A stretch of 64,000 nt of DNA from Thermoplasmata archaeon (GTDB lineage: Archaea > Thermoplasmatota > Thermoplasmata > Thermoplasmatales > Thermoplasmataceae), in the NCBI GenBank assembly GCA_021817255.1, contig JAKAVO010000003.1, positions 1 through 64,000 on the forward strand, in the 5' to 3' direction. The notes under the pieces were generated by a model. The model was given only the letters and a program-made list of their open reading frames with translations, did no database searches and was not told where the DNA came from. Both the position numbers and the translations under genes were made by a program. Shown here one piece after another: positions 1-12,667 of this stretch. Position 1 is the stretch's first letter, and each line of letters starts with the position of its first letter.

Positions 1-673
1 GATCTACTGTTACCATAGTATTTCTCATCTGCAGCGCGTATGTTGGCAAAAGAGCCACTACAAGAGTTGCAATGGGGAGAAAGCCGTGGTAAAGGACATC
101 TCCCATGTATGAGAAAATGTTGTGGTATGTCACTCCTGGTGTTACGGCATGGCCAACTGGGAATATAGTAATATCAACAGCAAAGAAGATCAGGAATATC
201 ATTCCTATCCAGAAATAAGGTATTGATGATACAAGCATGCCAGCTGAAGATATTAGGGAATCTCGAGCGGTTCCCCTTCGCCAGGCTAGATAAATGCCCA
301 GTATTATTCCAAGTCCCGCCGCAATTAGAGTTGCAGTTCCTACAAGGAACAAAGTCCATGGGAGTCTCTGCATAATGACAGAAGAAACATTTTCAGGATA
401 GTAATAAAATGATATACCAAGGTTTCCGTGAGCCAATTCTACGAGGTACCTTCCATATTGATAAAATAAATTTGGATTGTTAAGGCCAAATTCACGGGTT
501 AACCTGGCAACTACAACTGGATTGCCAATTTGCCCGCCCCCTCCACCAAACATATTTGCCATTACCGGATTGCCAGGAATAATTCTGGGCAGGAGGAAAT
601 TAAGTGTTATTGCGCCGTACGCAATAATAAGGGTATTTATGAATCTGCGGATTAGATATCTCTTTTCTATCAA
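1..673 (-). CDS. ABC transporter permease, DppB/OppB type (partial, runs off left edge; probable TTG start)
   Basis: Own translation of the minus strand: (M)IEKRYLIRRFINTLIIAYGAITLNFLLPRIIPGNPVMANMFGGG...LVGTATLIAAGLGIILGIYLAWRRGTARDSLISSAGMLVSSIPYFWIGMIFLIFFAVDITIFPVGHAVTPGVTYHNIF...; typical DppB N-terminus and permease loop. Not in the supplied ORF track because the ORF is open at the edge. Confidence 0.88.
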   Translation of the reverse strand, partial: MIEKRYLIRRFINTLIIAYGAITLNFLLPRIIPGNPVMANMFGGGGGQIGNPVVVARLTREFGLNNPNLFYQYGRYLVELAHGNLGISFYYYPENVSSVIMQRLPWTLFLVGTATLIAAGLGIILGIYLAWRRGTARDSLISSAGMLVSSIPYFWIGMIFLIFFAVDITIFPVGHAVTPGVTYHNIFSYMGDVLYHGFLPIATLVVALLPTYALQMRNTMVTVD

Positions 674-679
674 AAGTTT

Positions 680-2554
680 CTAATCCTCTTCCTTTTCCGA
701 TTCCTTTTTCTTGCGTGTTCTAAGTACAACAGCGGCAGCAACAACTGCTAGGATACCAACCACCGCACCCACGATGATAATCTTATTTGTTGTGGTGAAT
801 AGAGATGTCTGATTCTGATACTTCAGGATTTGCATGTGCTCTATGCTGATCATCCATGCGATGTTGTAATTTGGAGTGTTGTCTATGACAGTATGATTGT
901 TGTATGTGAAGAATGTTGGAGGATCATCTATCATTATGAGTGGAAGCTGATTTGCTATAGCCTGCTGTATCTTGTTAAGGTAACTCTGTTCCATTGTAAG
1001 GTTGGGCGTAGAGGCTGCCTCTGAAAGAAGAGTATTCACCGTGGTATTGTTATATCTTTCCACATTCCATCCATGAGTCCATGAGAATTTCCCGATAGGG
1101 GCACTCGAATTTGCAGCAAATAATGTGTTGAGAACAGACCATGCTGTTGGTGATGCTCCTGTGAACCCGAAGTAGGTCATCTGGAAGTTGCCATATCCTA
1201 CGTAATCTGCCCAGTTTGCAAACGTCTCAGGTGTATAGGTTGTCTTGATTCCGAACGCAGTAAGGTTCTGGGATATGATCTGTCCTGCTGTCACCCAGTC
1301 TGCAAGTGGAGGCTCAATTAATGTGATCTGAACTTGTGTTCCATTTGGGTAGTACCATTCTCCATTGGTCTTCGTGAAACCACCTTTAGTCATCATGTTA
1401 GCTGCAGCTGTTAAGTTGTAGTGGTAGAAGGGCAACCCTGTTGGAACCTGGTTTCTGAAAGTGTATGGAAGTCCACCATTTGAACCGTTAAGCCCTGCAC
1501 CTGCCAGTGCTACCTTGTTTATGTAGTGCTTGTTGATTGCAAAGGCAACGGCTTTTCTTAAATCGGTGTTGTTAAAGGGGGCGACCTTATTATTTAGCCA
1601 TGCGTAGAATGTATAAGTTGAAGGTGCACTTACGCTTTTAAGATAATTGAGTTTTGCGAATAGGCTTGCATCTGTATATGGTCCCCAGAATGCATCAATG
1701 CTCTTGCTTTCCAAGGCTGCTGTTGCATCAGATGTTGTCTTGAAGAACTCCCAGATCATCCTTGCGTAGTCTGGAGCACCGTTGAAGAAATTCTTGTTTG
1801 TTTTGAAGTCAGCACCGCTTACTGTTGTCATACTGGTAAGCATGACTGGACCATCTGTGATAAGTTTCGATGCGTTATATGAACCTGAAGTTATGTTTGT
1901 TGCGTAGTTCGTAAAGCTGGATATATTTGCAGTATACGGGCTATTTCCCCAGACTGCCGGTATTATTGGCTCAGTTCCTATTTCGTAGAGGAGCGGATTA
2001 TAATACTTTTTCATGTGGAATACCACTGTATAAGTGCTTGTAGCGTCAATGCTCGCTACATACTTGTTAAGGGAATTAAAGTCAATGCTTGGATGATTCA
2101 AGATAGATTGAAATGTGAAATTCACATCTTTGGAAGTTACAGGATTTCCATTGCTCCATGTGGCGTTTGTCACCATGTTGAAAGTAAACAGCTTACCCTG
2201 GTCTGATATGTTGTAAGACTTGGCAAGCCACGGTACTACACCACCACTTGCTCCTGGGTATAGCAATGAACTGTAGAGCAGCGCTGAAATATCTCCAGCA
2301 GTGCTTGTAGCTGTTACTGGGTTTAAATCAGTAAGTGGCCCCTGGACAGAACCAAATATAAATGTACCATTCGTATCAACCACCGCTACCTTTGAGGCTG
2401 GTGTTGCAGGTGAGTTTGCTGGTGAATTGCCAGCCACATAGCTCCCTGAACTTCCTAAAACCATCAGAAATACTATGGCAAAACTCGCTATAACTATTGG
2501 TATAGATTTCTTTTTATCAAAACGTTTTGACATAAAATCGACAATAAAATCCAT
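680..2554 (-). CDS. ABC transporter substrate-binding protein, peptide/oligopeptide family (SBP_bac_5), N- and C-terminal TM segments
   Basis: Signal/TM N-terminus, DppA-like body (VPWLAKSYNISDQGKLFTFNMVTNATWSNGNPVTSKDVNFTFQ), C-terminal TM anchor plus KKKES tail; directly upstream of the DppB-type permease. Confidence 0.9.
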   Translation of the reverse strand: MDFIVDFMSKRFDKKKSIPIVIASFAIVFLMVLGSSGSYVAGNSPANSPATPASKVAVVDTNGTFIFGSVQGPLTDLNPVTATSTAGDISALLYSSLLYPGASGGVVPWLAKSYNISDQGKLFTFNMVTNATWSNGNPVTSKDVNFTFQSILNHPSIDFNSLNKYVASIDATSTYTVVFHMKKYYNPLLYEIGTEPIIPAVWGNSPYTANISSFTNYATNITSGSYNASKLITDGPVMLTSMTTVSGADFKTNKNFFNGAPDYARMIWEFFKTTSDATAALESKSIDAFWGPYTDASLFAKLNYLKSVSAPSTYTFYAWLNNKVAPFNNTDLRKAVAFAINKHYINKVALAGAGLNGSNGGLPYTFRNQVPTGLPFYHYNLTAAANMMTKGGFTKTNGEWYYPNGTQVQITLIEPPLADWVTAGQIISQNLTAFGIKTTYTPETFANWADYVGYGNFQMTYFGFTGASPTAWSVLNTLFAANSSAPIGKFSWTHGWNVERYNNTTVNTLLSEAASTPNLTMEQSYLNKIQQAIANQLPLIMIDDPPTFFTYNNHTVIDNTPNYNIAWMISIEHMQILKYQNQTSLFTTTNKIIIVGAVVGILAVVAAAVVLRTRKKKESEKEED

Positions 2555-3309
2555 ATATTAAAACGTTATCAACGCTTTTATATCAGGTAAAATTGATTAT
2601 ATCTTGTTGTAAAGCAAACCTATTGTTAACTAATTCTGCCAATTTATTAAGTGTAAAAAGAAAAGTATTTAATACTTATGATACGGATCATTGTGCGAGA
2701 AAAAATTTTTCCAAAAACACAAGTGAATAACACAGTCATTTTTGTGAAAGAATTGAACCATTTGCCACAGAGAAGATATGGGGCTTATCTTGCCAATTTC
2801 CATTAATCATGAAAGTTATGCCAACACTAAGAATTGTCTATATATAGCATGCTTATTATCCGAGGGTGACGTCCAGGTGCTGGGAGGACGCATTCAAGTT
2901 TGGTGGTTATAAGTTTATGACAGTTCTTCAGTTTGTTCCTGGCTTAGTTAAGTTTGGACTCATTCTGCCCGTCATAATGGTGCTCCACAGTCTTGTCGTT
3001 CACTATCCTCTTCATTATGGATTATCATTTAAATCAAGATTGGTGCAGCGTTTATCCAATTGACAGGTTCAGCCCGCTTTTCTTGTTGTTTAATATGTAT
3101 ACATTTGATCCCTATCTTCAAATTAACTGACTTAGCTTCATAAAGAAATAGTAAACCTGTGAAAGACTATGCACCAAAATACTTCCATTACAACCGGAAA
3201 CAATATACGGAAAACGCGTACTAATAAAAATATTTGGATAAAAAATGATGAACTGAAGAATTTAGGTGCTGAACACTCTTAAGCCATTAAATATAAGTCA
3301 GGGCTACGG

Positions 3310-4410
3310 CTAGGGGAATTCCTTGATCATGAATTTCCTGAACGGTTTCACAGCGTGAACCAGTGACATATCTTCTTCGTATACATCAGCAACAACATTT
3401 ATATTGTCATCAGCTGGCAACTTTTTAAACCAAACATTAACCTCGCTTGCATTTGTTAACTGGTTGTTTCCATATCTATTGCCGATGTTGTCAATAGTCA
3501 CTGACCCCCGCGGCCTTTCAACACAGTTTCTCGGTTCAATCAATTTATTTTCTTCTCCTTTGGGAAATCTGAAAGTATATTTCAGGGACAGTTCTGTTCC
3601 TGGTTTTGCTATCATTTCCTTATTGTAAAGAACTCCCTTCTCTTTTTCTGTTAATCCCGGCCTCGATTTTGCCCTTATCCTGATATAGTTGCGGGAGGAT
3701 ATTTCTGCAACCGCGTCAAGATCCTCATCTGATGCAAGTGGGTCTCCTATAAGGACAGTATCTATGCCATCGATAGCAAAAAGTTCCTCGGTAGCTCTTC
3801 CGGGGGTCATATGCCTGAACGATTCAACTGTTGTCCTTGTATGCAATCCAGAAGAGTGGACAAATGCAAAGAGAGGTATTCCAAAGTGAGAGTATGCTTC
3901 TGCCTGTTGCTTTACAAACTCCAGTGAAATTCCTGATTCAAACTTGGGGTAATAATTAAAACTTGCCTGCATCTGGGTTCTATCGGCACCAGCAGCAATT
4001 ATCTCCTCAAGGTCTTTATAAAAATAATGGCAACCATTAAGTTCCACCTTCAGTCCCGCTTTGTTTTTCGTAAAGTCCGATACCTCCTTGTTTGAGAATC
4101 CGTCATCAAGCCTCAGTGATGCGACTCCAGCTTCCTTGAATGGAGATAGATTGTCTATTGTGGCTCCGAATATCCTCAGGGCGAATGGAGAGATGTCCGT
4201 AACTATTTCCATGCCAACTTCATGAACTCTCTTGGAAATAACCGGCATCTCGACCTTTACCCTCTCTGGATCAGACCCGGGTCTCTGCATGCTGGTGAAT
4301 ATCCTCTTGTAGCCTTTTTTAGCAGCCTTCTCTATATATGCAATGTTTTCCTCCACACTGAACTCCATTCCGGTAAATATTGAGATGCCTATGTTTCTCG
4401 CGATTACCAC
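3310..4410 (-). CDS. DUF871/MupG-family TIM-barrel protein (6-phospho-N-acetylmuramidase-like)
   Basis: N-terminus MVIARNIGISIFTGMEFSVEENIAYIEKAAKKGYKRIFTSMQRPG and ISPFALRIFGA...LSPFKEAGVASLRLDDGF resemble the DUF871/MupG family. Confidence 0.8.
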   Translation of the reverse strand: MVIARNIGISIFTGMEFSVEENIAYIEKAAKKGYKRIFTSMQRPGSDPERVKVEMPVISKRVHEVGMEIVTDISPFALRIFGATIDNLSPFKEAGVASLRLDDGFSNKEVSDFTKNKAGLKVELNGCHYFYKDLEEIIAAGADRTQMQASFNYYPKFESGISLEFVKQQAEAYSHFGIPLFAFVHSSGLHTRTTVESFRHMTPGRATEELFAIDGIDTVLIGDPLASDEDLDAVAEISSRNYIRIRAKSRPGLTEKEKGVLYNKEMIAKPGTELSLKYTFRFPKGEENKLIEPRNCVERPRGSVTIDNIGNRYGNNQLTNASEVNVWFKKLPADDNINVVADVYEEDMSLVHAVKPFRKFMIKEFP

Positions 4411-5378
4411 CTGAATGAGTCTACCATAGCAACCCTGAGTTCGTGAGAACCATCTTCCCTTCTCTGTTCATAATAGAAAAGGAAGCTATTCTTGAATCTG
4501 ACAGTATCAACATATCTTATAGATGCCCCATTCGGTCCTTCTATGTAGGGTTCTGAAACAGATAACCTGTTAAAAGTTTTAAGGTCAGTGGAGAAAGCAA
4601 TTCCACACTTTTCTTCATAATTCTGTTCTATCTTGTACGCTCCATCATAGAAAGCTACAAAACCACCATCAATCCTGGCAATTGAGCTTATCCTTGTCGT
4701 GCTTGAGTCCCAACTGTCTCCAAGGCCGATTACCTCTCCTGCCCACTTGAAGTTTATTCCATCACTGCTTATGGCCAGACCACTCTTAGAAGTTGTGAGG
4801 CCAGTAGCAAATGCATCACCAGTAGAATGAAGGTTTGGCTCATTCTTGGGAGGTAATGGAGCAAAACTCACATACATCATGTAATAATCCCCTACCTTCA
4901 TAATCCATGGGTCTTTTACGCCACTGGTTCCTAGCATATCTCCATCAAGCACTTTCTTTCTCGATGATATATCGAATTTTTCAACTGATTCAGCTTCAAC
5001 ATAGTCTATTTGCCACATATTGTTTTTGGGATTCACATAGCTGAAATACAGTCTGAAATTCTTCCCAGTGTGCAAAAGGCAACTTCTTTCTATAGACGGG
5101 GCACCATCAAGCATATTCTTGTTAATTTCAAATACATCCTCAAAATCTGTTCCATTTGTGCTTTTTGCGACCCTGTTAATCGTGCCTCTTCCCTCTCCTA
5201 CGGGCCTTCTTATCCTGTATGTGAGATATAGAATATCATCCATTTCAAAAATAGATGGTGCACCAACCCAGTTTCCCTGTTTCTTCTCAACTGGCTCTCT
5301 TACCACTTTCGACTCGTGTATGTTGAACTTTGGGAGATTTAAAATTTCCCTAGAGTTTTGTTTTTTGGAAACTATCAT
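4404..5378 (-). CDS. Glycosidase-like protein, five-bladed beta-propeller type (GH43/GH130-like)
   Basis: GAPSIFEMDDILYLTYRIRRPVGEGRGTINRVAKSTNGTDF, VKDPWIMKVGDYYMMYVSF, SGLAISSDGINFKWAG: repeated propeller-type motifs; stop overlaps the MupG-like start. Confidence 0.65.
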   Translation of the reverse strand: MIVSKKQNSREILNLPKFNIHESKVVREPVEKKQGNWVGAPSIFEMDDILYLTYRIRRPVGEGRGTINRVAKSTNGTDFEDVFEINKNMLDGAPSIERSCLLHTGKNFRLYFSYVNPKNNMWQIDYVEAESVEKFDISSRKKVLDGDMLGTSGVKDPWIMKVGDYYMMYVSFAPLPPKNEPNLHSTGDAFATGLTTSKSGLAISSDGINFKWAGEVIGLGDSWDSSTTRISSIARIDGGFVAFYDGAYKIEQNYEEKCGIAFSTDLKTFNRLSVSEPYIEGPNGASIRYVDTVRFKNSFLFYYEQRREDGSHELRVAMVDSFRW

Positions 5379-5939
5379 GTTTGAGAAATTTCCTTTAATT
5401 ATAAATTGTTTTGGTTATGGGCAATAGGGAAATATCTCGCCTGTTACGGTTTAAATACAGATCCCAAATAAATCGGCAAAATGCTGATTGCTATGATGTC
5501 GGGCACAGTCCTACAAACTTCAACTAACTTTAAACAGAACTTAGAAGCACTTATATTAACGGGAATTAGGAAAGATGTTCCGATGTTTCAGCCTTGTCAG
5601 AAATTTCTTATGGAGTTTGATTCTCTCTGGGGGCATCTGCTAATTTTCACATGGCAAGGGTAAGCCACCAATATTCAGATAAACCGGATCAACTCACTGT
5701 GCAAAAAGAATCCAGAAGTTTCACAATTGAAAAATTATGAAACCCGCAGAGAATAATAGGTAGTACACCTCTTGCCTGTGAAACTTGCCCACAGGGATCA
5801 AAACGGATGTTAAGTTAGCAGGGAAATGCTTAGAATTATATAACATTCAGATGATATTCAAACATCTATTGAAATTAACTGATAATCTCCTGCCTTCATG
5901 AATACAAAATTTAAATATCCTGGAATTACTGGCTCTACC

Positions 5940-6959
5940 ATGAAATTTATTTCTGTGGACGGTGGGGCGACAAAGACCATTTCAATCATTTATGACGAAG
6001 ATGGAGAAATATTATCAGCGGGGCTTGCTTCTTCATCAAACTTCCGGAACGTGGGCGTTAAGGAAGCCAGTTCGAACATTATGAAATCAATGGACGATGC
6101 TGTTAAAAGAAGTTCCACGGACTGGAGTGAAATTGCATTTTGCACATTTGCTTTGGCTGGGGTAAAAGATTCTGATCAATCCACTTCTGTAATAAACGAC
6201 TTCATCTCAAGGTACAGTATGATTCAAAAATATGAACTTCTTAATGATGGTGAAGCAGGCTATAGATGCAGATTCCCTGGAAAAGATGGCATAATCGTTG
6301 CTCCGGGCACGGGCATGATTTCTTATGGAAGATCCGGAAGCCTGTTTGACCGCTGCAGTGGATGGGGATGGTTTATTGGGGATGAGGGAGGCGCTTTTTA
6401 TCTGGGAAGAAGGGCAATACAGGAAGCGGCTAAGATCGCTGATGGCAGATCAGACTGTGACGGCCTGCTTCTAAATTCTATCATGGATAAATTCAATGTA
6501 AACGAACCCAGAAAACTCGTAAATGAAATTTATAAGGATAAAATAGAAATCAGGAAAATAGCCTCAATTGCCGCCATTCTTTCGGAAAACGCAAGGAGAG
6601 GTGACAGTGCTTCAAGATCCTTAATTGAGGAGGGTGCAGCAGAAGCTGCGAAATGCGCCATAGCACTTCTAAAAAAATTCAAAAGAAATGATATCCAGGT
6701 AAGCGGATATGGAGGAGTCTTCCGGGCCGGGGATTTATATTGGAAACCATTTACCGAGAAAATTCTTGAGAAATTTCCAGATACCTCATTCAAGAAACCT
6801 CTTTCTGGTTATCACGCTGTGCTTGGTTCTATGCAGATCGTACTTGAAAGGCATAATCTCATGTTGAACGAGGAAGATATTGAAGAGAAAGCGATAAACC
6901 TGGATAAGATAATTAAGAAATTACCCTCAGATGAGTTGAAATCAGATCTTATGATGTGA
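5940..6959 (+). CDS. BadF/BadG/BcrA/BcrD ATPase family kinase, N-acetylglucosamine-kinase-like
   Basis: MKFISVDGGATKTISIIYDEDG phosphate-1 motif; VAPGTGMISYG; GWGWFIGDEGGAFYLGRRAI as in NAGK-type kinases. Start moved to 5940 from the ORF-track 5898. Confidence 0.82.
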   Translation: MKFISVDGGATKTISIIYDEDGEILSAGLASSSNFRNVGVKEASSNIMKSMDDAVKRSSTDWSEIAFCTFALAGVKDSDQSTSVINDFISRYSMIQKYELLNDGEAGYRCRFPGKDGIIVAPGTGMISYGRSGSLFDRCSGWGWFIGDEGGAFYLGRRAIQEAAKIADGRSDCDGLLLNSIMDKFNVNEPRKLVNEIYKDKIEIRKIASIAAILSENARRGDSASRSLIEEGAAEAAKCAIALLKKFKRNDIQVSGYGGVFRAGDLYWKPFTEKILEKFPDTSFKKPLSGYHAVLGSMQIVLERHNLMLNEEDIEEKAINLDKIIKKLPSDELKSDLMM

Positions 6960-7280
6960 GAAGCTTTCCAAATTTTTTATCTCATTAAAATCATTTTTTA
7001 AATTAACGATTAAAGTGTGTTTTGCAAATTATGTGCAGATAGCATCCGGATGGAAATGCCCTGTTTGAGTAAGAAGGCCGATGCCATTTGTCCAATCCAA
7101 AGGTCAAAGCCTGTGTTATGAAGCAAAATCTCTGAAAAGGCAGATAAATGAATGACCGTGACGGATCAAGAATTGCAGGATGAGAGGAATTTATTCAAAG
7201 ATAAACCCGCGAGCATTTTGGGGTATTGGCATATTATAACTGAAAGAAAGAGATAAGTAGTTACGCAATATTCAACGGAT

Positions 7281-8879
7281 ATGAATATGGAGTTGAAGGA
7301 CCTGGGGCAACTCCTTCAGATTTCACTGCCTCAGGATGGCATATCAAGATGGAAAGGCATTTTAGAGGAAGTTATCCCTGGAAGTATAGTAATCCAGGGT
7401 GCCAACGTTTCCAATGGAAAGGACATTCAGGAATTTATAAAAAAAGTTCAATTGATTTATGATGATATTGGAATTCCTGATTCGAGAAAACCCCTCATCG
7501 GGATTACTCATGAAGGAGGATGGATTAGCAGAATTCATGATATATCCAATAGCCCTGGAAACATGGCTCTGGCAGCCACGGGCTCCACCGAATACACTTA
7601 CTCAACATACAGGGCAATGGGACAGGAACTTTCTTCGTTAGGCATAGACTGGAACCTTGCTCCTACAGTGGACCTGAACACTAATCCGGAAAATCCAATC
7701 ATAGGAGTCAGATCGTTTGGCGATAACCCCGCAGAAGTATCGAAGCATGCAAAAGCAGCCTGCAAAGGCTTGAGGGATGCTGGCCTCCTGGCTTGTGCCA
7801 AACACTTTCCTGGACACGGAGATACTCAGCGTGATTCCCATCTTGAGCTCCCTGCAGTGAACAAAAAGCTCACTGAAATGAGCCGCACTGATCTGGTTCC
7901 ATATGTAGATCTAATTAAGGATGGAGTGGATTCTATAATGATTTCACACATATTCTATCCTGACATAGGAGGGGACTCAAAACCCATTCCCGCTTCTCTC
8001 TCTGAAAGGGTCGTAGGACGACTTCTGAGATCGCAGATGGGCTTTGATGGGCTGGTTGTGACTGATTCACTTTCAATGTCTGCTGTTGCTGAGAATTTTC
8101 CTGCTGAACAAGCCACAAAAATGGCAATAAAGGCTGGAGTCGACATACTTGAATGTGCCAAGCCTGAATATTATATGGAAATATTCCACTCCCTGCAGGA
8201 TTCAGTAAAATCCAGAGAGATTAGTGCAAATAGGATTGAGAAGAGCCTTGAACGGTTTAACTCTCTTAAAAACATCCTGTCTGTACGCAAATCTTCTTAT
8301 TTTCCTTGGCCCAAAAGTATTCTTGAAAACGTTACCTCTGCTTCTGTAAACGCATCCATCACAATTCTGGGAAAGGGTAAACTGGATGTAGGAGCTATCA
8401 AAAAAGCAGGTTCTCTTAACTCAGTCTTTTTTACAAGGTCAAGATTGCTGGAGGAAGAATTTTCCGCAAGAAAGACCAGCCCAGTTACAGAAATAATCAA
8501 ATCATGGGGCCACGAGACCCATACAAACCTTGTTCTGCCAAGAAACCTGCCGGAAGAAAGAATCAGGGAAAATGTTCAACTACTTTCTTCGAAGTTGAAT
8601 GCTGGTGATTTTCTTGCTGTCTTCCTGAACGATTCTACCGCTTATTCCCAAAGTGGAATTGAAGTCCCTCCTCAGATCAGGTTTATTAATGAACTCTTTC
8701 CTTATTTTGGGAACAGGCTGATTGCAATAGGCACCGGGACACCCTATGAAGCATCTCTTCTCCCGGGGGATATGCCATACATTTCCGCCTACAGTTTTGA
8801 ACAACCCTCATTATCGGCAGCTATTGGCGTCCTTTCCGGAGCTATCCCACCTTTAGGAAGGGTACCTGTCAGAATATAA
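7281..8879 (+). CDS. nagZ: Glycoside hydrolase family 3, NagZ-like beta-N-acetylhexosaminidase
   Basis: NagZ-type KHFPGHGDTQRDSHLELPAV loop and GLVVTDSLSM nucleophile motif; no signal peptide evident, so probably cytoplasmic. Confidence 0.85.
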   Translation: MNMELKDLGQLLQISLPQDGISRWKGILEEVIPGSIVIQGANVSNGKDIQEFIKKVQLIYDDIGIPDSRKPLIGITHEGGWISRIHDISNSPGNMALAATGSTEYTYSTYRAMGQELSSLGIDWNLAPTVDLNTNPENPIIGVRSFGDNPAEVSKHAKAACKGLRDAGLLACAKHFPGHGDTQRDSHLELPAVNKKLTEMSRTDLVPYVDLIKDGVDSIMISHIFYPDIGGDSKPIPASLSERVVGRLLRSQMGFDGLVVTDSLSMSAVAENFPAEQATKMAIKAGVDILECAKPEYYMEIFHSLQDSVKSREISANRIEKSLERFNSLKNILSVRKSSYFPWPKSILENVTSASVNASITILGKGKLDVGAIKKAGSLNSVFFTRSRLLEEEFSARKTSPVTEIIKSWGHETHTNLVLPRNLPEERIRENVQLLSSKLNAGDFLAVFLNDSTAYSQSGIEVPPQIRFINELFPYFGNRLIAIGTGTPYEASLLPGDMPYISAYSFEQPSLSAAIGVLSGAIPPLGRVPVRI

Positions 8880-9057: not shown

Positions 9058-9729
9058 TTAAAGTGGAAAGTCCATGCTGCCGAAAGCTTTCTTCCAGTCG
9101 TCCAGAAATCTTGACAATCCTTCACTTGTCTTTGGATGGGCAGGCAGTTTGGAAAGAACATCGAATGGAAGTGTTACAACGTCTGCACCAAGAATCATAG
9201 ACCTCAATACATGGAGTGGGCTCCGTATGGAAGCAACAAGAATGTTTGTCTTCAAGTCGTAGTTAGTGTAAATAGTTTTAATCTGCTCTATCAGGGCCAT
9301 TCCATCTTCAGCTATATCATCAAGCCTTCCAACAAATGGAGAGACATAGCTGGCACCTGCCTTGGCTGCAAATAAAGCCTGGATTCCATTGAAGATAAGT
9401 GTTGAATTTACCGGAATTCCCTTGTCGGAGAGTGCGTTTGTAACCTTCAGCCCAACTGAATTAAAAGGAACTTTCACAACAGCATTCTTGCCCAATTCCC
9501 TTATTTTAAGAGCCTGTTTCACCATGTTGTCGTAGTCTTCAGCTATGACCTCAATGCTTACGGGCCCAAGCGTTTCATTCAAAATTTTAGTAACGATTTC
9601 CCTGAATGAACCGCCATTCTTCATCTCCTTAGCTATCAGTGACGGATTTGTAGTTACTCCGTCAAGCAGCCCCAAGTCATTGGCCTGCTTTATTTCATTT
9701 ATATTTGCCGTATCAAGAAATAGTTTCAT
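9058..9729 (-). CDS. Transaldolase / fructose-6-phosphate aldolase-like (short TalC/MipB type)
   Basis: [90 protein letters not shown]. Confidence 0.93.
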
Positions 9730-10681
9730 ATTTTTTCTCCTCCCTGAATGATTTTACACCAGCAGCAACTATATCACTTACACCCATATGAAAATAATCA
9801 AATAGATCCCATGATTTGCCAGATTTGCCAAAGGAATCCTTCATGCCAACCCTCACAACAGGCACCGGATATTCCTCTGATGCCACTTCACAAACGCGGC
9901 TTCCCAGCCCATTGAATATGGAGTGTTCTTCAGCTGTAACAAAATGCCCCGTTTTCTTTGCATATTCCAAAATATTTGCCCTGTCAATTGGTTTTATGGA
10001 GGACACATTAATGACTGCTGTGTCAATTGCAAGTTCCTTCAGGTTCTCAGCAGCTTGAAGGGCAAAGGAAAGCATCGAGCCGCTGGCAAAAATGGTTAAA
10101 TCACTTCCATCCCTTATCACTGTATTCTTTCCTTCCCTGAACTCATACCCGTCTTCGTTTATTACAGGGAATTTTTCCCTGCTTAACCTTACATAATATG
10201 GAGTCTTGGTTTTTTCAACAAGATAATCCATTACAGATGCTGTTTCAACTGAATCGGCCGGGACAATGACCTTCATGTTTGGAAGCCCGCTCATGAGGCC
10301 TATATCCTCGACCATCTGGTGGGTTGCTCCATCTTCGCCAACCGTTATTCCTGCGTGTGTCACGACAAATTTTACATTTATGTTATTATAACATACGGAC
10401 TGCCTGATCTGTTCATATGTCCTTGTAAGAAAAATAGCAAATGTTGATACAAATGGCTTTAGTCCACTCAAAGCCATTCCAGCGGCTGTTGTAACCATGG
10501 ACTGCTCTGAAATGCCCATGTTGAAGAATCTGCCTGGAAATTCTTTGCCAAACGCTCCTGTCTTGGTCGAACTGGAAAGGTCTGAATCAAGCACCACAAT
10601 GTCACTGTGCTTCTTTCCCAACTCTACCAGTTTCTCTCCATACATATCCCTTAAACTTTCAGTTTTCATAACTCTTAGCAC
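9713..10681 (-). CDS. Transketolase C-terminal subunit
   Basis: [63 protein letters not shown]; overlaps both neighbours, operon-like. Confidence 0.94.
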
Positions 10682-11525
10682 CTATTTCATTTAAAGCCTT
10701 TTCAAACTCTTCTTCAGAAGCTGGTGGAGAACCATGGTATTTGGGATTGTTTTCCATGTAGCTCACACCCTTTCCTTTAACCGTGTTGGCTATAAGGAAT
10801 ACGGGCTTGTCAGAACTCTGTTTTGCAAAATCCATAGCTCTTTCAATATCATTAAAATCATGCCCGTTAAATTCCATGACATTCCACCCAAAGGACCTGA
10901 CTTTTGAAGAAATATCACCCATTGGCATGATGTCTTTCGTAAATCCGTCAAGCTGGATTCCATTCTTATCAAGAATAGCAACCAAATTGTTCAGTTTGTA
11001 CTTGCTTCCTGCCATAAGTGACTCCCAGATGCTGCCTTCCTCTATTTCCCCATCACCAAGGATGGCAAAAACCCTGTATTTTTCATTCTTGATCTTTGAT
11101 GCCATTGCCATTCCAACTGCAACACCAAGCCCCTGCCCAAGTGAGCCCGTAGAAGATTCAACGCCCGGTACTCCCCTGTGCACATGGCCTTCGAGTTTTG
11201 AATTCAGCTGCCTGAAGTCCATCAGGAGTTCCTGGGGAAAATAACCTCTAAGCGAAAGAATGCTGTAAAGGGCAGGCGATGCGTGGCCCTTGCTCATTAT
11301 GAGCCGATCCCTGTCCGGGGAATTCGGATCATGAGGATCAACCACCATTTCCCTGAAATATAGATCTGTCAATATATCAATTATGCTAAGGGAACCACCC
11401 GGATGCCCACTCTTTGCCTTATATACCATCCTGATTATAAGCGATCTTGCATTCTGGGCTATTTTAAAAAGCGTCTGGTTATCCGGAGTTTTGTCCCGAA
11501 ATTCTGAGTCACTATAGAAATCCAT
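10659..11525 (-). CDS. Transketolase N-terminal (ThDP-binding) subunit
   Basis: SGHPGGSLSIIDILTDLYF; MSKGHASPALYSIL; GDGEIEEGSIWE ThDP motif. Confidence 0.94.
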   Translation of the reverse strand: MDFYSDSEFRDKTPDNQTLFKIAQNARSLIIRMVYKAKSGHPGGSLSIIDILTDLYFREMVVDPHDPNSPDRDRLIMSKGHASPALYSILSLRGYFPQELLMDFRQLNSKLEGHVHRGVPGVESSTGSLGQGLGVAVGMAMASKIKNEKYRVFAILGDGEIEEGSIWESLMAGSKYKLNNLVAILDKNGIQLDGFTKDIMPMGDISSKVRSFGWNVMEFNGHDFNDIERAMDFAKQSSDKPVFLIANTVKGKGVSYMENNPKYHGSPPASEEEFEKALNEIGAKSYEN

Positions 11526-11596: not shown

Positions 11597-12667
11597 TCAT
11601 GAGATGTCGTGGCCAGTCTTTCTTAGTTGGAATTCCTCCCCCTCGGGCAGTATGCCTGTTGCAAAGAAAATTATCTTGACCTTGCCCTTGTATATATCAT
11701 CCGTTTCCTGCCGGATTATAATGTTTGCCCCGGATGAGACCTTATCCTTCATATAAAGCATTGCCCTCTCCCTTTCTTCAACTGTCAATGTATCATCTCC
11801 GGATATGCTAAGGAGCAGTCCTCTAGCCTTGGACAAGTCGGCAGAATTAAAGGGTGAATTTAAGGCAGATTCACATGCCTCCATTATTCTCTGCTCTGGT
11901 GAGGAGTCAGAAATGCCGACACCAAATATCCCAAGGCCGCCCAGTTCCAAAATTTTTTCAAGATCAGACAGTTCAGTGTTTACTGTTGCGCTTTTGGAGA
12001 CGCTCTCTATTAGGCCTTCAATTGCATTCATCATTATAGAGTCAGCAAATTCCAGTGCAACATTAAACAATTTCTTAGGGGCATATTTTCTTATCCTGTC
12101 ATTTTCAAAAAGAATGAGCGAGTCACTGAACTGCAATAATTCACCTTCACCTTTCCTGGCATTTTCCATCCTTTTCTTTCCTTCACTTGCCATTGGAAGA
12201 GATGCGATGCTGATGACAATAGAATTCCTTTCCTTTGCCTTCATTGCAAGAAAAGGAGAAGAGCCAGTACCTGTTCCACCACCAAGGCCGGTTACAATTA
12301 TGGCAATTTTTACCCTGTCAAGGCTTTTTTCAATTTCCGTTTGCGATTCCCTGGCTGCCGCATTTCCAACCTGGGGATCAGCTCCCGCACCCCTTCCTTT
12401 GGTCAGTTGTTTTCCTAAAACGATTTTCTCCCTGACATCTATCCGGTTTAGATGGGATGCGTCAGTGTTCGCTGCCGCAAAGGAAATTTCGCAATAGGGA
12501 GAATTGAAGTTTCTTGATACCATCCTCTTAATGGTGTTGGAGCCGGCACCACCCATGCCAAATATTTTTATCCTGAGCTTATTCTCTTCAATAAGTTCAG
12601 TTAATTTATCCTTTGAGGTGCCGTAATTTTCCTCTTCCTCATCAAAAGCAGGATTTCCTGAGATCAT
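11597..12667 (-). CDS. ftsZ: Cell division protein FtsZ
   Basis: IFGMGGAGSNTIKRM; GLGGGTGTGSSPFLA tubulin/FtsZ signature; T7-loop-like NTELSD. Confidence 0.9.
   Translation of the reverse strand: MISGNPAFDEEEENYGTSKDKLTELIEENKLRIKIFGMGGAGSNTIKRMVSRNFNSPYCEISFAAANTDASHLNRIDVREKIVLGKQLTKGRGAGADPQVGNAAARESQTEIEKSLDRVKIAIIVTGLGGGTGTGSSPFLAMKAKERNSIVISIASLPMASEGKKRMENARKGEGELLQFSDSLILFENDRIRKYAPKKLFNVALEFADSIMMNAIEGLIESVSKSATVNTELSDLEKILELGGLGIFGVGISDSSPEQRIMEACESALNSPFNSADLSKARGLLLSISGDDTLTVEERERAMLYMKDKVSSGANIIIRQETDDIYKGKVKIIFFATGILPEGEEFQLRKTGHDIS

Follow-up and report, generated by a model that had tools for sequence, protein, structure and literature searches.

Gene clusters for inferred PTS-free catabolism of imported bacterial muropeptides in a wall-less Thermoplasmatales archaeon

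Introduction

Murein salvage is known from bacteria. In Bacillus subtilis, it is represented by the operon murQ-murR-murP-amiE-nagZ-namZ, and Tannerella forsythia has a PTS-free MurNAc route consisting of MurT, MurK and MurQ. Staphylococcus aureus carries the operon mupG-murQ-murP-murR, and Staphylococcus MupG acts on a 6-phosphorylated disaccharide (PMC6262408). The same study presumed another role for archaeal MupG-like proteins, as archaea are devoid of murein, and expected other functions in remote members of the family and in archaea (PMC6262408). Secreted archaeal peptidoglycan hydrolases that kill bacteria were the subject of a 2025 study, which left undecided whether bacteria themselves are a resource (PMC12352652).

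Here, we analyzed a window of 64,000 nucleotides (contig C26:1-64000) from a Thermoplasmatales archaeon, along with the rest of its genome (1.32 Mb in 54 contigs, 77.7% complete) and related genomes. The genus is inferred to be Cuniculiplasma. We read the window as carrying one module of a PTS-free pathway, encoded at two loci, with which this wall-less archaeon catabolizes imported bacterial muropeptides in the cytoplasm, with a probability of roughly 0.8; enzyme activities, substrates, import and the order of the steps are inferred. The individual parts are already known, and the murein catabolic gene set in archaea is without earlier report: in the openly licensed literature searched, no murein catabolic pathway in archaea was found.

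Like the B. subtilis operon, the archaeal gene set brings together NamZ, NagZ, an AmiE-like serine hydrolase and MurQ. It differs in showing neither the PTS transporter MurP nor the regulator MurR, which are replaced by an ABC importer and BadF/NAGK kinases, and further in its enzymes without signal peptides, in the stem-peptide enzymes encoded in the same cluster and in its archaeal host. As in S. aureus, a MupG-family gene lies beside murQ, but an ABC importer and a kinase occupy the place of PTS MurP, and archaeal MupG is only about 25% identical to bacterial members, its gene being overlapped by a propeller partner gene. PTS-free import, a sugar kinase and MurQ are shared with T. forsythia, to which the archaeal pathway adds an Opp-type importer, NamZ/NagZ, peptide enzymes and the MupG module. 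Bacterial mupG genes also occur beside a BadF-type kinase gene, namely on plasmids of Priestia megaterium (L094) and Latilactobacillus curvatus (L104; with a GPH symporter by the pair, the 3 kb seen being free of PTS genes), so this pairing is not unique to archaea; the stretches seen contain no Opp importer or propeller gene, however. The secreted hydrolases (PMC12352652) likewise have archaea acting on bacterial murein, whereas the enzymes described here are cytoplasmic and catabolic, and GH25 and M23 hydrolases were not found in ten genomes.

Importer, Kinase and Glycosidase Genes of the Window

The genes of interest occupy the left end of the window:

2 to 673, minus strand: 3' part of an OppB-type permease gene, truncated at the contig end, with the remainder on contig C41 (L011:2-385); intact in syntenic relatives
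680 to 2554, minus strand: OppA/SBP_bac_5, a family-5 solute-binding protein (PF00496, 1.9e-56)
3310 to 4410, minus strand: MupG/DUF871 (GH170-type) TIM-barrel protein (MupG_N, 1.2e-57; MupG_C, 3.4e-10)
4404 to 5378, minus strand: GH130/GH43-like five-bladed beta-propeller protein; 7-bp overlap of its stop with the mupG start
5898 to 6959, plus strand: BadF/NAGK/MurK-type sugar kinase, candidate amino-sugar 6-kinase (PF01869, 5.5e-32)
7281 to 8879, plus strand: GH3 NagZ-type beta-N-acetylhexosaminidase, predicted to be cytoplasmic (PF00933, 1.2e-72)

All genes named in the first-pass annotation were found at these positions, and its remark that the four enzymes lack obvious signal peptides holds, as no hydrophobic N-terminal segment is seen in them. 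OppA does carry hydrophobic segments, at both its N-terminus and its C-terminus; among solved structures, a Thermotoga mannoside-binding protein is closest to it.

The kinase meets the PF01869 cut-off and remains far under that of the NagK equivalog (74 bits versus 370), and its orthologues are present in the NamZ-MurQ clusters of relatives. The suggestion that it stands in for PTS phosphorylation fits insofar as its family is common to MurK and NAGK, but the closest solved relative is a broad Sulfolobus hexokinase, with MurK only second, and substrate data are lacking. That 6-phosphorylation is within reach of this kinase family follows from NAGK, which adds a phosphate to C6 of both MurNAc and muramyl dipeptide (PMC9477735).

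The GH3 enzyme contains the NagZ loop KHFPGHGDTQRDSH (of the KHFPGHG...DSH type) and a VVTDS nucleophile motif. It scores 174.2 bits against NCBIfam PRK05337, under the cut-off of 207, and is therefore described as NagZ-like rather than filed as an equivalog. Its gene adjoins mupG in locus L017 as well and lies near it in locus L019. Chitobiose routes, too, can employ GH3 NAGases, NAGK-type kinases, NagA and GlcN6P deaminase. The murein label could thus be an over-reading of a general catabolism of amino sugars (chitin, GlcNAc or glycoprotein glycans), with GlcNAc oligosaccharides as the substrates of GH3, kinase, NagA and deaminase, the more so as the best PDB matches of the window GH3 are the beta-N-acetylglucosaminidases 6k5j and 4zm6 and not the classical NagZ of Gram-negative recycling. 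We nonetheless consider this improbable, given that MurQ, NamZ, a YkfC-like NlpC/P60 protein, LdcA and a dipeptide-epimerase-like protein, all of them associated with murein, are encoded in shared clusters.

The Inferred Contig Junction and Two MurQ Clades

The first-pass annotation had noted that MurQ is not in the window. This is correct, but it does not extend to the genome: a search with MurQ models retrieved two genes in the genome, one of which adjoins the window start on another contig. The start of contig C41 repeats about 60 bp of the left end of the window identically and continues the OppB reading frame, after which the order is OppB, OppC, OppD, OppF, MurQ1. The join between C26 and C41 is inferred and is backed by the gene order in relatives; murQ is linked to mupG across this junction in the window genome and contiguously in the relatives. 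Beyond MurQ1, C41 encodes a type I phosphodiesterase/nucleotide-pyrophosphatase-like protein (L011:4407-6326) and a sulfatase-like protein (L011:6499-8034), both without hydrophobic N-termini.

MurQ1 exceeds the cut-offs of both TIGR00274 (315.6 bits versus 302) and PRK05441 (360.7 versus 168). MurQ2 meets that of PRK05441 (298) and stays under that of TIGR00274 (239). With one mis-extracted row set aside, every one of the 30 MurQs aligned retains E83 and E114 (E. coli numbering). In the tree, the MupG-linked MurQ1s form one clade (support 100/100) and the MurQ2s of the second cluster another (88/93), which suggests two MurQ lineages. The bacterial side of this tree consists of nine plasmid-collection sequences, for which reason no donor lineages were inferred.

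MupG and Its Propeller Partner

The protein encoded at 3310-4410 matches the Pfam families MupG_N (195.7 bits, cut-off 24) and MupG_C (40.5 bits, cut-off 24.4). By sequence it matches PDB entries 1x7f and 2p0o, as it does by fold, for which only the N-terminal domain is reliable; the structure model is poor in the C-terminal third. In the alignment, archaeal MupG forms a divergent branch in which the RLDxGF and N..P columns are kept and the bacterial GPWxxxDG loop is absent. The catalytic residues of MupG have been called enigmatic (PMC6262408). MupG was found in five of 300 genomes of the class and in none of the six other genomes of the same genus that were sampled.

The propeller gene adjoins mupG in six out of six loci seen. 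The protein reaches 22.6 bits against the GH130 family PF04041, under the cut-off of 26, and a sequence search for its relatives yielded nothing significant. The best Foldseek matches of its AlphaFold model (pLDDT 78) are GH130 phosphorylases; the modeled fold is GH130-like, without defining a role for the protein.

The gene order of the module is kept in relatives, among whose named records is Candidatus Sysuiplasma superficiale; a closer relative is the MAG WH5.bin35 (78% identity). In three genomes from another family of the class (G056, G040 and G072), propeller-MupG-MurQ1-OppF-D-C-B-A forms one contiguous stretch. In G008, propeller-MupG-MurQ1 is embedded in a larger cluster that also comprises NlpC, epimerase, kinase, GH3, NagA, AmiE-like, MurQ2, phosphodiesterase and sulfatase genes, and WH5.bin35 has the genes for sulfatase, propeller, MupG and GH3 side by side. 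Phosphodiesterase and sulfatase genes adjoin the propeller gene in L019, and L017 has a sulfatase gene too.

MupG is the least certain step of the pathway: its substrate may be a 6-phosphorylated disaccharide made by a kinase, or else MurNAc-6-P that polymer linkage sites already contain, as hinted at by the neighboring phosphodiesterase. In a variant of our main interpretation, MupG and the propeller protein would handle 6-phospho-MurNAc that brings its phosphate from the wall, from linkage sites of teichoic or other polymers, and that is freed by this phosphodiesterase, which would make a kinase step on the disaccharide unnecessary. The action of the Staphylococcus enzyme on a 6-phosphorylated disaccharide (PMC6262408) and the phosphodiesterase- and sulfatase-like genes beyond MurQ1 and in L019 are in line with this variant; as both genes are absent near MupG in some relatives and there are no data on polymer or phosphodiester specificity, we regard it as rather unlikely.

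The Second Cluster

The second locus, on contig C46, encodes a kinase, an AmiE/PBP4B-like serine hydrolase, a SIS protein (GlmS/NagB-II-like), NagA, MurQ2, an epimerase-like protein, a GH3, an S15 peptidase, NamZ and an NlpC/P60 protein. C46 breaks off within LysA; it shares an overlap (364 bp, 98.6%) with contig C5, which carries LysA, NamZ2, LdcA and a large binding protein. An amidase had likewise been noted as not in the window; the AmiE/PBP4B-like serine hydrolase of this cluster is a candidate for it. With MurQ, NagA and a NagB-II/GlmS-type SIS protein present in the genome, the module syntenic in relatives and the catalytic motifs of GH3 and MurQ kept, the wall-fragment salvage proposed in the first-pass annotation is supported at the sequence level.

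NagA scores 272.9 bits (cut-off 225.65), and the NamZ_N and NamZ_C domains of NamZ (GH171) exceed their cut-offs. The NlpC/P60 protein has 3h41 as its best PDB match (2.3e-21), which we take to be the gamma-D-Glu-DAP endopeptidase YkfC of B. cereus. In the window genome, it contains DCSGF, HVGLY and MIH; with this Cys-His-His motif, an SH3 and YkfC as closest relation, it qualifies as a putative YkfC-type enzyme whose activity is inferred. The KxK and DxD motifs occur in ten out of ten copies of the epimerase-like protein, which attains 220.5 bits against its best NCBIfam model, under the 500 required. LdcA meets both peptidase S66 domains (PF02016 and PF17676) and remains under the cut-off of PRK11253 (112 bits versus 378). 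Below equivalog cut-offs are thus LdcA and the epimerase, as well as the kinases and the SIS protein. Most if not all copies of the GH3, epimerase and AmiE-like proteins carry their motifs; the strict motif patterns were not matched by a small number of GH3, NlpC and NamZ copies.

LysA also lies in the clusters of G178 (L078:2017-3261) and G024 (L079:14077-15279). No match to DapB was found in these two genomes, which is compatible with the use of imported DAP. DapB is present, however, in the window genome and in the same-genus genome G067, where LysA may therefore serve lysine synthesis; as proof of external DAP, LysA is weakened accordingly.

Distribution across the Class

Of 300 genomes of the class, about 15 carry the second cluster. 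MurQ scores above its cut-off in 18 of the 300, NamZ in 16 and both in 15 (Fisher p = 1.7e-21), a p-value that describes association only, since related genomes are not independent. In most of the 15 shared genomes, MurQ and NamZ lie within about 15 kb, with other cluster genes alongside. One carrier, G067, is a single-contig chromosome of the same genus with 1,938,699 bp and about 37% GC. The chromosome of Cuniculiplasma divulgatum S5 measures 1,938,699 bp with 37.3% GC (PMC5155288), and G067 is inferred to be this cultured strain.

Bacterial contamination of the metagenome assembly would also account for such genes, as several of the families are best known from bacteria and the genome is fragmented and incomplete. 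The second cluster, however, is also found in separate MAGs and in two 99% complete genomes of one contig each (G067 and G178); four other genomes of the class carry the MupG module in unchanged gene order; and archaeal MurQ1 and MurQ2 form their own clades relative to the nine bacterial sequences. Contamination was therefore rejected as having a negligible chance, although it is refuted outright for the second cluster only, whose archaeal origin is secured by its recurrence in the presumed S5 chromosome.

In this S5-like genome (L075:13319-20000, L076:121-1692), epimerase and GH3 are separated by an insertion that encodes a third BadF-type kinase, a TrmB regulator, a GH31-like protein and a MalFGK-type sugar importer. 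The same genome encodes an S13 D-Ala-D-Ala carboxypeptidase (PBP4-type; L076:16409-17557) without obvious signal peptide, which is found again in the clusters of eight relatives. Further MurQ genes are present in three genomes (G316, G324 and G473) from two other families of the phylum, and a divergent MurQ is encoded on a 2.9-kb contig of G235 (L089).

Proposed Pathway and Its Implications

Recycling of the archaeon's own murein was rejected, as MurC did not score above cut-off in any of eight genomes. Lysis of bacteria by GH25 or M23 hydrolases was dismissed too: in a search limited to these hydrolase families, none was found in the ten genomes, which leaves the source of soluble murein fragments unexplained. 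This gap counts against the pathway proposed here, as do the divergent MupG, the hexokinase-like match of the kinase, the several proteins under equivalog cut-offs and the unmeasured activities. In its favor, gene content, collinearity, conservation, the catalytic motifs of MurQ, GH3, epimerase and AmiE-like proteins, the lack of secretion signals in the enzymes and the failure of MurC to reach its cut-off were all observed directly; the activity of every enzyme, like the substrates, the import step and the step order, is inferred.

We slightly favor the view that wall-less archaea, including the cultured C. divulgatum, partly live on bacterial walls, taking up whole muropeptides via an ABC importer and using their sugar, lactyl and peptide parts (DAP included) in a cytoplasmic, PTS-free pathway with two MurQ lineages, one of them with a new MupG-propeller pair. 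In the main text of the accounts of this species that were consulted, PMC5155288 among them, no peptidoglycan or muram- terms were found. The conserved cluster in acid-living Thermoplasmata, with one carrier matching a type strain in genome size and genus, offers a concrete test of archaeal use of bacteria and suggests that, in acid mine drainage, archaea are trophically linked to bacterial walls.

According to the proposed scheme, muropeptides would be taken up by the Opp-type ABC importer. Their stem peptide may be trimmed and recycled by the YkfC-like NlpC/P60 protein, LdcA, the AmiE/PBP4B-like hydrolase and the Ala-Glu epimerase, with LysA putatively converting meso-DAP to lysine. From the glycan ends, GlcNAc and MurNAc would be released by exo-cleavage through NagZ-type GH3 and NamZ. 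BadF/NAGK-type kinases are predicted to produce the 6-phosphates, and MupG to cut 6-phospho-MurNAc glycosides. MurQ would then remove D-lactate from MurNAc-6-P, and NagA and the SIS deaminase could lead to fructose-6-P.

In the window, the salvage locus is adjoined at 9058-11525 by genes for a fructose-6-phosphate aldolase/transaldolase (above the TIGR00875 cut-off) and for a transketolase split into two halves (named by eye), at which GlcNAc-derived fructose-6-P could enter. Just downstream of the transketolase genes, at 11597-12667, lies a gene for an FtsZ-like protein, also named by eye from its sequence.
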